Assembly (NCBI GenBank): GCA_026195895.1 | Contig: JAPHRO010000060.1 | Coordinates: 1-48,857 of the forward strand | Direction: 5' to 3' | Length of the DNA: 48,857 bases | DNA from: Gammaproteobacteria bacterium | Lineage (GTDB): Bacteria; Pseudomonadota; Gammaproteobacteria; SZUA-229 | In this document: one piece after another, positions 17,903 to 21,716 of the stretch | Position numbering within the stretch: position 1 is the stretch's first letter | How the letters are laid out: each line of letters begins with the position of its first letter | The notes under the pieces: generated by a model | Told to the model about the DNA's origin: nothing | What the model saw: only the letters and a program-made list of their open reading frames with translations | The model's database searches: none | Program-made: the position numbers and the translations under genes

Positions 17903-18508
17903 ATGCACAATTTCTATAGACAGGCCCACTTTCTCACCAGTGCCTCTCAGGCCAGCCAGTTTCCCGATGATGCCAGTCTGGAAGTCGCATTCGCCGGCCG
18001 CTCCAATGCTGGTAAATCCAGCGCAATCAATACCTTATGTGAAAATAAAAACCTGGCTCGTACCAGTAAAACGCCTGGTCGCACCCAGTTAATCAATTTT
18101 TTCGAGCTGGATGAGCAGCGTCGACTGGTCGATCTGCCTGGATACGGCTATGCCAGGGTGCCAGAAAAAATGCGTCGGGAATGGCAAAAACTCATGGAAG
18201 ACTACCTGGGTTCCCGGAAAACCCTCTGCGGCCTGGTGATTATTATGGATATCCGCCACCCACTAAAAGATTATGACCTGCAAATGCTCGACTGGTGCCA
18301 GCACATGGGCACCCCAACCCATATCCTGCTGACCAAGGCGGACAAGCTTAAACGGGGTCCTGCCAGCCAGTCCCTGCTCAAGGTTAGAAAAATACTGAAA
18401 GATACTGGCTATGACAGCAGCGTGCAGATGTTCTCCGCCCTGAACAAAACCGGGCTGACAGAATTGCAGCAGGTGCTGAATAACTGGTATGGCTTGACGG
18501 CGGCATAA
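17903..18508 (+). CDS. engB: EngB (YihA/YsxC) ribosome-biogenesis GTPase
   Basis: A 201-residue GTPase with P-loop GRSNAGKSS, switch motif GRTQLINFF, G3 motif DLPGYGYARV and G4 motif LTKADKL. EngB is an essential or near-essential factor for large ribosomal subunit assembly. It converges with polA across a 517-base intergenic region, the same arrangement as yihA and polA in E. coli. The length is usual for the family. A REP-type hairpin lies 24 bases after the stop and may stabilise or end the transcript. Confidence 0.95.
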   Translation: MHNFYRQAHFLTSASQASQFPDDASLEVAFAGRSNAGKSSAINTLCENKNLARTSKTPGRTQLINFFELDEQRRLVDLPGYGYARVPEKMRREWQKLMEDYLGSRKTLCGLVIIMDIRHPLKDYDLQMLDWCQHMGTPTHILLTKADKLKRGPASQSLLKVRKILKDTGYDSSVQMFSALNKTGLTELQQVLNNWYGLTAA

Positions 18509-18636: not shown

Positions 18637-18765
18637 ATTCTTGCTATTCAAATTGCGTCTGTGCAATCTCAGGACAGGGCAAAAAATGTGAGTTTACAAA
18701 AGGTAAATGATCATTTTTTAACGAAGATCATGGGATCGCACAGACGTGAGCCGGGTAGCAAGAAT
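18637..18765. repeat. 129-bp near-palindromic intergenic element
   Basis: The outer arms (18637-18664 and 18738-18765) match as inverted repeats at 21 of 28 positions, with ten identical at the outer end and nine at the inner end. Pairing continues inward (18666-18671 with 18731-18736), then AAAAAATG pairs with CATTTTTT, and TTTAC pairs with GTAAA at the centre. The whole block can therefore fold as one long hairpin. It encodes no protein. Size and form resemble ERIC-type or MITE-type elements, and it ends exactly at the terminator U tract of the small RNA next to it. Confidence 0.6.
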
Positions 18766-18798
18766 AAAAAATCCCCGATCTTTTGGGCAAGATCGGGG
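18766..18798 (-). terminator. Strong intrinsic terminator between polA and engB
   Basis: On the minus strand CCCCGATCTT (18782-18773 in + coordinates as its complement) pairs with AAGATCGGGG over a perfect 10-bp stem with a 6-base loop. It is followed by A and six U residues. It ends the candidate small RNA and possibly any read-through from polA. Confidence 0.9.
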
Positions 18799-18910
18799 AC
18801 AACCTAGAGGCCAGCTTGGGGAGGCTAACCTCAAATCGCCCGCTCAGGGAGGCAAGCGGGCTTGCGCCGGGCTTTAGCGCAATTCACGATGAAAAAAGCT
18901 GCTTTGCTGT
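18766..18910 (-). ncRNA. Candidate trans-acting small RNA in the Spot 42/ErsA position between polA and engB
   Basis: About 145 bases on the minus strand between a sigma-70 promoter and a strong terminator. The transcript contains three consecutive stem-loops with almost no spare sequence. SL1 is TTGCGC/GCGCAA (18882-18862) with loop TAAAGCCCG. SL2 is CCCGCT/AGCGGG (18860-18839) with loop TGCCTCCCTG. SL3 is GAGGTTAGC/GCTGGCCTC (18832-18807, two G-U pairs) with loop CTCCCCAA. The SL2 and SL3 loops carry CCUCCC and CUCCCC, which are complementary to Shine-Dalgarno sequences. E. coli Spot 42 and Pseudomonas ErsA occupy the same place downstream of polA facing engB, but I see no primary-sequence match to Spot 42. 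No open frame with a ribosome site lies inside. The function is unknown; a Hfq-type or C-rich-loop regulator is likely. Confidence 0.75.
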
Positions 18911-18916
18911 AAGAGA

Positions 18917-18944
18917 ATTAAAGATCAATTCAGCTATAAGTCAA
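18917..18944 (-). promoter_or_regulatory. Sigma-70 promoter of the candidate small RNA
   Basis: On the minus strand TTGACT (18944-18939) and TTTAAT (18922-18917), each five of six matches to consensus, are separated by 16 bases. The predicted start is near 18910. The promoter lies about 80 bases after the polA stop codon and is independent of polA. Confidence 0.7.
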
Positions 18945-19025
18945 AACAGATTCGACGAGTGGTAGCCGTCTGTTCAACGCATCGGACGAACGGATGCATA
19001 TTAAAAATAGCTTATAAAATTAACC

Positions 19026-21716
19026 TTAATGGGCCTCATCCCAATTATCACCTACACCTGTTTCGACCAGTAATGGCACGTCCAGTTCCGCCGCGGACTC
19101 CATATCCCGATGTACCAGTTTGGTCAGTGCCAAGACATCTTTTTCAAGCACTTCAAAAACCAGCTCATCATGCACCTGCATCACCATGCGCGCATCCAGC
19201 TTGCCGGCGCGCAACGAAGCATCAACACTGATCATGGCATGTTTAATGATGTCGGCTGCTGTGCCCTGCATCGGCGCATTGATCGCGGTACGCTCGGCAT
19301 ACTGGCGGCGCTGGCCATTTTTGGAATTAATTTCCGGCAAATACAGACGGCGACCAAACAGCGTTTCGACATAGCCCTGATCATGGGCTTTTTCCCGGGT
19401 TTGATCCATATAGTCTTTCACCCCAGGATAGCGCTCAAAATACAGATCCACGTAATCCTGTGCTTCATAACGGGTGATGTTTAACTGCCTGGCCAGACCA
19501 AATGCCGACATGCCATAAATCAGGCCAAAATTGATGGCCTTGGCGGCGCGACGCTGCTCGGCACTCACCTCATCCAGTGCCAGCTCAAACACCTCCGCTG
19601 CCGTCGCTCGATGAATATCGCGACCTTCCTTGAACGCCGTTAGCAAACTTTCATCACCCGATAAATGCGCCATGATACGCAGCTCGATCTGGGAATAGTC
19701 CGCCGCCAGTAATTTATAACCCTTATTGGCGACAAAGGCCTGACGAATGCGCCGACCTTCCTCGGAACGGACCGGGATGTTCTGCAAATTTGGGTCTGAT
19801 GATGACATCCGCCCCGTGGCCGCCCCACCCTGATGATATGATGTGTGCACTCGACCGGTTTGCGAATTCACCTGCTGGGGCAGTTTATCAGTGTAGGTGG
19901 ATTTCAGTTTACTTAAGCCTCGGTGTTCCAGAATCAACCGCGGCAGCTCGTATTCTTCTGCCAGCTCCTGCAGCACATCCTCCGCCGTAGACGGCTGCCC
20001 CCTGGGGGTTTTACGAATCACCGGCAAGCCGAGCTTTTCAAAAAATATCGCCTGAATCTGTTTGGGCGAACCCAGGTTAAAACTCTCTCCCGCCTCTTCA
20101 AACGACTGCTGCTCGATCTCCAGCATCCGCTCGGCCAGTTCACGACTTTGTTTAGCCAGCATATCGACATCTACCTTGACACCATTCTGCTCAATGCGCT
20201 GAATCACCGGCATTAACGGTAGTTCAATGGTGTCATAGACCTGCTTCAGTGCTGCGTCCTGCTCCAGCTGCTGCTGCAGGTAATGATGCAGGCGCAGGGT
20301 AATGTCCGCATCTTCAGCGGCATAAGGCCCCGCCTGTTCCAGATCAATCTGATTAAAGGTTAACTGTTTGGCGCCCTTACCCGCGACGTCTTCAAAATGG
20401 ATCGTCTGATGATTGAGAAAACGACTGGCCATGCTATCCATGTCATGGCGTTTGGTGGAGTCCAGCACATAGGATTCCAGCATGGTGTCATGGGCTATGC
20501 CCTGCAGATGAATGCCGTGGTTTGCCAGCACATGGATATCGTATTTCAGGTTCTGGCCCAGCTTGGCCTTGCTGGCATCTTCCAGCAGCGGCTTCAAACC
20601 ACCGAGAACCGTCTCTTCGGATAGCTGCGTCGGCGCATCGGGATAATCATGGCCGAAAGGCACATAGGCCGCCCTGCCTTCTGCCACCGCAAACGACACA
20701 CCCACTACCCGCGCCTGCATATAATTCAGGCTGGTAGTCTCGGTGTCGAAGGCGAATATATCCGCCTGCTGCAACTGATCCAGCCATGAATTGAAACGGT
20801 CCTCATCCAGCACGGTTTCATATTCGGATTCTTTAGTGCTGGCCGCTGTTGTCGGCGCATCGTCAGCCACTTCCGCCAGCCAGCTTTTCAATTCCAGCTC
20901 TGTATACAGCTCTTTTAAGCGCTGCACATCGGGCTGCATTAGCACCAGATCCGACGGTTTCTGGTCCAGTTCCACATCACAGACGATAGTGGCTAGCTGG
21001 TAGGACAGCGGCAACTGCTCCAGGCTGGCGCGCAGATTGTCGCCAACCTTGCCTTTTATCTCATCTGCATGCTCGATAATGCCCTGCAGGGACTGGTACT
21101 GGTTCAGCCACTTTACTGCGGTTTTTGGACCCACTTTGGGCACTCCGGGGATGTTATCCGCGGTATCACCGACCAGTGCCAGGTAATCGATAATCTGCTC
21201 TGCTGATATGCCAAATTTTTCCTGAACCGTCTCCGGATTACTCAGAGTATTGCTCATGGTATTGATCAGGCTGATTTTATCGCTTACCAGTTGCGCCATA
21301 TCCTTATCACCGGTGGAGATCAGCACATCGCGCCCTTCGGCCGCCGCCTGCCTGGCCAGCGTGCCAATCACGTCATCCGCTTCCACTTTCGGAATGACCA
21401 GTTTGGGATAGCCCAGAGCGTCGACCAGTTCATGGATCGGCTCAATCTGATCTCGCAAATCATCGGGCATGGGTGGCCGATGCGCTTTGTATTCTGGATA
21501 TAAATCACTCCGAAAAGTTTTGCCTTTGGCATCAAACACCACCGCCATATTCTCAGGCTGATATTCTTCCACCAGTTTCTTCAGCATATTGATCACGCCA
21601 TAGACGGCGCCAGTCGGCTGGCCGGTGGAGGTGGCCAGCGGCGGTAACGCATGAAATGCACGATAAAGATAAGACGAACCGTCAACCAGAATAAAGGGGG
21701 GCTTTTTTGCTGCCAT
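19026..21716 (-). CDS. polA: DNA polymerase I
   Basis: An 896-residue enzyme with three domains. The 5'-3' nuclease domain (1-290) carries DGSSYLYRAFHAL, VFDAKGKTFR and GDTADNIPGVPKVGPKTA. The 3'-5' exonuclease domain (about 310-500) keeps the metal-binding pair in FAFDTETTSL, so proofreading should be active. The polymerase domain has motif A AADYSQIELRI, motif B RRAAKAINFGLIYG and motif C QVHDELVFEV. It fills gaps in repair and replaces RNA primers. Length and motifs are normal. It is divergent from the LOG-family gene and followed by the candidate small RNA. Confidence 0.97.
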   Translation of the reverse strand: MAAKKPPFILVDGSSYLYRAFHALPPLATSTGQPTGAVYGVINMLKKLVEEYQPENMAVVFDAKGKTFRSDLYPEYKAHRPPMPDDLRDQIEPIHELVDALGYPKLVIPKVEADDVIGTLARQAAAEGRDVLISTGDKDMAQLVSDKISLINTMSNTLSNPETVQEKFGISAEQIIDYLALVGDTADNIPGVPKVGPKTAVKWLNQYQSLQGIIEHADEIKGKVGDNLRASLEQLPLSYQLATIVCDVELDQKPSDLVLMQPDVQRLKELYTELELKSWLAEVADDAPTTAASTKESEYETVLDEDRFNSWLDQLQQADIFAFDTETTSLNYMQARVVGVSFAVAEGRAAYVPFGHDYPDAPTQLSEETVLGGLKPLLEDASKAKLGQNLKYDIHVLANHGIHLQGIAHDTMLESYVLDSTKRHDMDSMASRFLNHQTIHFEDVAGKGAKQLTFNQIDLEQAGPYAAEDADITLRLHHYLQQQLEQDAALKQVYDTIELPLMPVIQRIEQNGVKVDVDMLAKQSRELAERMLEIEQQSFEEAGESFNLGSPKQIQAIFFEKLGLPVIRKTPRGQPSTAEDVLQELAEEYELPRLILEHRGLSKLKSTYTDKLPQQVNSQTGRVHTSYHQGGAATGRMSSSDPNLQNIPVRSEEGRRIRQAFVANKGYKLLAADYSQIELRIMAHLSGDESLLTAFKEGRDIHRATAAEVFELALDEVSAEQRRAAKAINFGLIYGMSAFGLARQLNITRYEAQDYVDLYFERYPGVKDYMDQTREKAHDQGYVETLFGRRLYLPEINSKNGQRRQYAERTAINAPMQGTAADIIKHAMISVDASLRAGKLDARMVMQVHDELVFEVLEKDVLALTKLVHRDMESAAELDVPLLVETGVGDNWDEAH

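Follow-up and report, generated by a model that had tools for sequence, protein, structure and literature searches.

The window, the whole stretch of 48,857 nucleotides that was analysed, contained a small RNA (sRNA) gene on the minus strand between polA and engB (18944-18766), consisting of a promoter, an interval of approximately 145 nt and a strong terminator (Table 1). These borders are those of the original prediction, the near-consensus promoter reading TTGACT-N16-TTTAAT and the terminator comprising a G+C-rich hairpin of 10 pairs followed by AUUUUUU. The promoter scanner applied accepts only -10 boxes with A as their second base and therefore missed this promoter. Upstream of the -35 box, the conserved element CCACTCGTCG may represent a binding site for a regulator. 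A search against Rfam at curated cut-offs returned no match in the window, in line with the earlier claim of an unannotated gene, and the gene was single-copy in its genome. A small open reading frame (ORF) inside the RNA was considered and rejected, as the GUG-started frame lacked a Shine-Dalgarno (SD) sequence and the length of the region varied among relatives. As in trans-acting bacterial sRNA genes, a dedicated promoter and terminator were present together with a conserved structure, and a conserved ORF was absent. Hence, this is a real, unannotated sRNA gene, the product of which belongs to a known kind of RNA but diverges from it. Between its terminator and engB (18640-18765), a short repeat element with a 17-bp inverted repeat was found (18655-18671 with 18730-18746), of which two more copies occurred in the genome (contigs C27 and C11; 77-82% identity). 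This repeat has the appearance of a small non-autonomous mobile element.

Table 1. Features of the sRNA locus between polA and engB (positions refer to the window).
Feature	Position	Strand	Evidence
polA, same-strand upstream neighbour	19026..21716	-	Pfam DNA_pol_A, 5_3_exonuc, DNA_pol_A_exo1
Conserved element CCACTCGTCG, upstream of -35	18953..18962	-	Same sequence in the window and its four nearest relatives; degenerate (..TCGG) in the majority of the others
-35 box TTGACT	18939..18944	-	Read directly; TTTTGACTT or TTTTGACAT in about two-thirds of the family's aligned upstream regions
-10 box TTTAAT, 16-nt spacer	18917..18922	-	Of 19 aligned upstream regions, 18 have TTTAAT and one has TTTACT
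sRNA of approximately 145 nt, estimated to start at 18911-18908	18766..18910	-	Promoter, terminator, fold z, sub-threshold Rfam matches, R2 match
SL0, 5' hairpin, loop AAAGCCC	18862..18882	-	All cells (100%) paired across the 5 consensus pairs in 20 relatives
SL1 hairpin, loop GCCUCCCU (18853-18846)	18838..18861	-	Two-sided compensatory changes in 5 of 8 consensus pairs
SL2 hairpin, loop CUCCCCAA (18823-18816)	18807..18832	-	Two-sided changes in 7 of 9 pairs
Intrinsic terminator: hairpin 18798-18773, loop GCCCAA, U tail	18766..18798	-	Two-sided changes in 4 of 8 consensus pairs
engB (yihA/ysxC) GTPase, convergent neighbour	17903..18508	+	Pfam MMR_HSR1; engB convergent at most related loci

The RNA (18910-18766) had a folding energy of -62.7 kcal/mol, compared with -45.0 ± 4.3 kcal/mol for dinucleotide shuffles (z -4.08; 0/200). 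It folded into four hairpins, namely SL0, SL1, SL2 and the terminator, each with a C-rich loop. The original prediction had seen the interval filled by three stem-loops; the C-rich loops described for two of them (those of SL1 and SL2) hold, but the 5' hairpin SL0 had been overlooked. That prediction had also named the preservation of the stems by compensatory changes among relatives as the test that could refute it, and such preservation was found. Indeed, when 20 orthologues from the taxonomic family of the window were aligned without reference to structure, RNAalifold recovered the same four helices, with two-sided changes that kept the pair in 17 of the 30 pairs. Standard pairs occupied 96.7% of the cells, compared with 26-46% when the partners were slid, and 74 two-sided cells were observed versus 25.6 in shuffles (0/500). 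The SL2 loop motif CCCCAA was invariant among these relatives and the SL1 motif CCUCCCU nearly so. Across the class, 94.9% of the cells paired (slid controls, 30-51%), 29 of the 30 pairs displayed two-sided changes, and two-sided cells numbered 572 versus 149 in shuffles, although this alignment of 86 copies was fitted to a covariance model and is therefore biased towards the model structure. The SL1 motif CUCCC was present in 94 and the SL2 motif CCCC in 101 of 105 copies. The stems are thus under selection and the loops are constant.

A covariance model built from the 20 family orthologues (R1, the seed of which includes the window sequence) had matches (E ≤ 0.001) in at least 150 genomes of a class-wide sample of 370, belonging to at least 117 of 273 genera; as nine candidates per genome were scored, the count of genomes is probably a lower bound. 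Sixty loci were inspected, namely the best-scoring ones together with some tandem ones and some weaker, scattered ones, and in 48 of these 60, polA and/or engB adjoined the sRNA. Significant matches downstream of polA occurred in Thiohalobacter (L014), Thiotrichaceae (L042), Halothiobacillus (L035), Ectothiorhodospiraceae (L054), Methylococcaceae (L037) and Lysobacterales (L068). A second model (R2), made from 86 class-wide matches that do not include the window sequence, matched the window only at the sRNA (93.1 bits, E 9e-21). Tandem copies were found as well, with five in one locus (L174), four in each of two others (L182 and L183), and two in approximately ten more. Besides L174, L182 and L183, tandem arrays were noted at L145, L146, L155, L158, L169, L184, L186, L197 and L198. 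Within the arrays, the stems differed between copies and the C-rich loops were mostly kept; some copies carried their own sigma-E-type promoter. In one family (L157, L163, L165), the sRNA adjoined a permease gene instead of polA, and the spacer of its sigma-E-type promoter was slightly shorter (N15); this is a relocated copy. At L152 (2734-2851), the sRNA lay immediately upstream of the genes for ResB and cytochrome c assembly, with polA absent from the vicinity, and in the window genes for a cytochrome c and a DsbA-like protein adjoined engB, which suggests a broader conserved neighbourhood. In addition, a TwoAYGGAY RNA match (44.1 bits; cut-off 43) was located near the polA-engB locus at L136 (2103-2181).

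These data bear on whether the RNA might be no more than a processed 3' end, or the terminator region, of the polA mRNA, devoid of any function in trans. Its position directly downstream of polA on the same strand would fit such an origin, but the sRNA possesses its own conserved promoter boxes, its upstream hairpins evolve by compensatory changes, it has been duplicated in tandem, sometimes together with a promoter, and copies exist at loci without polA (e.g., L152, L157 and L163), making this explanation extremely improbable.

The motif GAAC[T/C]T-N15-17-NCNNA, which is of the sigma-E/AlgU promoter type, was found upstream of 47 of the 105 copies, versus 0.56 expected in shuffles. The same sigma-E-type box was present at the ErsA locus (L381), and ErsA is known to be AlgU-dependent (PMC8395346, PMC5819304). 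In most relatives, the sRNA gene accordingly looks like a member of the sigma-E (envelope-stress) regulon, judging from these boxes. A search for the ErsA-type motif GAACTT-N15-17-NCNNA (sigma-22/sigma-E) upstream of the window RNA gave no hit. The promoter in the family of the window is the TTGACT-N16-TTTAAT form; in three relatives (L087, L098 and L103), a degenerate GAACTC-N16-TCATA overlaps with it, and the window itself keeps only the sigma-70-like form. In the lineage of the window, the degraded sigma-E box is overlapped by a sigma-70-like promoter, which suggests broader expression.

Concerning known RNAs, the original prediction had placed the gene by position only, at the locus of Spot 42 and ErsA. 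The position is correct, Vibrionaceae and Shewanella having Spot 42 there, but the RNA is not an orphan: it is related to anti-hemB and sX13, which had been overlooked. At permissive thresholds, the window RNA aligned over its full length with anti-hemB (RF02837; 39.7 bits, E 7e-8; curated cut-off 49.5) and with sX13 (RF02232; 33.4 bits, E 1e-4; cut-off 50), whereas ErsA/Pseudomon-1 (RF01719) scored 15.7 bits (curated score 50). As all curated cut-offs were missed, strict membership of any of these three families was rejected. With anti-hemB (Burkholderia RNA 7; ncS04 in B. cenocepacia), the window RNA shares a CCUCCCUGA-loop hairpin followed by a terminator; it differs in having more C-rich hairpins and in its location at polA-engB (contig C20), hemB being on contig C30. 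In B. cenocepacia, ncS04, as the homologue of anti-hemB, is a transcribed RNA (PMC5688073). The sX13 RNA of Xanthomonadaceae (approximately 115 nt) likewise lies directly downstream of polA and consists of stable stems with C-rich apical loops and a terminator, but its stem sequences differ; it has been described as confined to that family (PMC3771888). ErsA has the polA locus in common with the window RNA, and a sigma-E-family promoter in common with many of its relatives, the promoter of the window RNA being sigma-70-like. Spot 42 (RF00021) occupies the same chromosomal position in the same orientation but is devoid of the C-rich loop architecture. As originally stated, no sequence similarity to Spot 42 was visible: its model did not match the window RNA even at E 10, while true Spot 42 loci scored 90-126 bits. 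Homology with Spot 42 was rejected, and none is claimed despite R2 scores of 17-26 bits at Spot 42 loci. Finally, the alpha-proteobacterial RNAs ar7 and ar14 have C-rich loops too, and ar7 is located near polA (PMC3771888), yet a permissive Rfam scan reported no match of either to the window RNA.

Similar links emerged at the level of the family. RF02837 matched 118 of the 370 genomes, 22 of them above the cut-off, largely in the same places as R1. As polA was adjacent in 8 of 10 inspected above-cut-off loci, the name anti-hemB covers one branch only. Conversely, R2 yielded 31-34 bits at sX13 loci (E ~1e-5), 45 bits for anti-hemB and 26 bits for ErsA. The RF01719 model retrieved four matches in the 370 genomes, namely one strong ErsA and three sub-threshold matches, the latter all being C-rich polA-locus sRNAs. 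Moreover, the copies of a single polA-engB array (L217) matched anti-hemB (four copies), sX13, ErsA and ar14, the ar14 match (38 bits) being below the cut-off. These comparisons firmly link the window RNA family with anti-hemB and sX13; a link with ErsA is weaker but probable, and one with ar14 is no more than suggestive. The window RNA shares polA/engB synteny, C-rich SL1 and SL2 loops, a terminator and a significant R2 score with the other copies. It is, given its sub-cut-off matches to anti-hemB and sX13 and the link to ErsA through other members, a divergent member of a superfamily of C-rich sRNAs at the polA locus, which Rfam holds piecemeal. It is somewhat more probable than the contrary that one ancient polA-engB C-rich sRNA, originally under sigma-E control, underlies anti-hemB, sX13, ErsA and possibly ar14, which are now filed as unrelated. 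Such an sRNA would be carried by a large share of the Gammaproteobacteria (as circumscribed in GTDB), having expanded in tandem in some lineages and switched to a sigma-70-like promoter in that of the window. In the literature searched, mostly without subscription journals, no paper was found that names sX13 and ErsA together or that names RF02837, and the phrase "downstream of polA" in connection with sRNAs was encountered in the sX13 paper only; prior recognition of the family is therefore possible.

With respect to the mode of action, the C-rich loops of sX13 repress mRNAs with G-rich motifs independently of Hfq (PMC3771888). The original prediction had proposed a translational repressor with several targets, many genes having matching ribosome-binding sites. 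Target statistics were obtained for 271-276 genes (approximately 380 kb, consisting of the window and 20 further stretches of its genome). GGGAG preceded the start codon of 4, GGGGA that of 7 and GGAG that of 40 out of 271 genes, while the longer motifs GGGAGG and GGGGAG were found at 0 and 1 of 276 starts, respectively. Among the 276 genes, the predicted loop pairing at starts did not exceed that within genes and was little above that of shuffled loops. The abundance of matching sites was thus not borne out. Because starts with GGGAG or GGGGA were few and an excess of pairing at start sites was lacking, the regulon should be limited. By analogy with sX13, the best remaining reading of the proposal is that the RNA would repress a limited set of mRNAs with G-rich leaders; a multitude of targets is not supported.

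The same counts weigh on the idea of an anti-SD mimic that damps the translation of very many mRNAs in general. The SL1 loop resembles the CCUCC core of the anti-SD sequence and GGAG is a frequent start-site motif, as counted above, but the near absence of the longer motifs and the lack of any advantage of start regions over internal ones, or much advantage over shuffled loops, led to the rejection of such general action, which we consider very unlikely. The lack of enrichment at start sites could instead fit an RNA that titrates a protein or has a structural role, with C-rich loops that bind not mRNAs but a protein, for instance an RNA-binding regulator or a factor associated with the ribosome. 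The loops are far more constant than one lineage-specific set of targets would need, and tandem arrays of up to five copies would suit a dosage-dependent titration. However, CsrA/RsmA sponges carry GGA loops, of which the loops of the window RNA (CCUCCC/CCCC) are the complement, and sX13, with the same architecture and locus, acts via C-rich loops and G-rich mRNA motifs (PMC3771888). A role of this kind is hence unlikely.

The best explanation as a whole, to which a probability of roughly 0.8 may be given, is that of an autonomous C-rich sRNA of the polA locus, the loops of which repress a limited set of mRNAs with G-rich starts. According to this explanation, a free-standing gene, driven by a promoter of its own shortly downstream of polA and closed by an intrinsic terminator, would belong to an ancient family of polA-engB-locus sRNAs with C-rich loops, among the branches of which are sX13, anti-hemB and probably ErsA. 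Its rigid hairpins would present the C-rich loops (GCCUCCCU and CUCCCCAA), and these may form short G-C-rich pairings with G-rich motifs (GGGAG, GGGG) in or close to start sites, so that ribosome binding would be blocked on a limited set of mRNAs, as is the case for sX13. The window RNA thus probably represses mRNAs with G-rich initiation sites; we infer its transcription, its targets, the repression itself and any need for Hfq.

A possible target is hfq, which is present in the genome of the window and is repressed by sX13 in Xanthomonas. Leaders of hfq with GGGAG or GGGGA occurred in 26 of 30 genomes of the family of the window (L218 and L242-L270). AGGAG is the class norm, and GGGAG is rare before other genes of the genome of the window (4/271). 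Across the class, a G-rich hfq start was found in 3 of 49 sRNA-positive versus 7 of 45 sRNA-negative genomes, so that hfq was rejected as a conserved target; as the G-richness of the hfq start is not class-wide, no conserved target is established. The G-rich hfq leaders of the family may reflect shared ancestry, and hfq is a lead, as a lineage-specific candidate target. Another candidate leader, cggcggaggcggcc, followed by a gene, was noted at L238 (15683).

The 2013 study of sX13 raised the question of whether comparable sRNAs are encoded at the polA locus in other bacteria (PMC3771888). According to the present scan they are, in approximately 40% of the class genomes sampled. More broadly, sX13, anti-hemB and probably ErsA resemble parts of a single widespread family at the polA locus. 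Three separately filed RNAs hence become one family open to testing, united by their locus, their loops and, in many cases, an envelope-stress promoter. The results obtained for sX13 and ErsA on virulence, biofilm formation and antibiotic entry could guide work on many unstudied lineages. Furthermore, the natural change of promoter in the lineage of the window makes it testable how sigma-E control is linked to the targets of the RNA.
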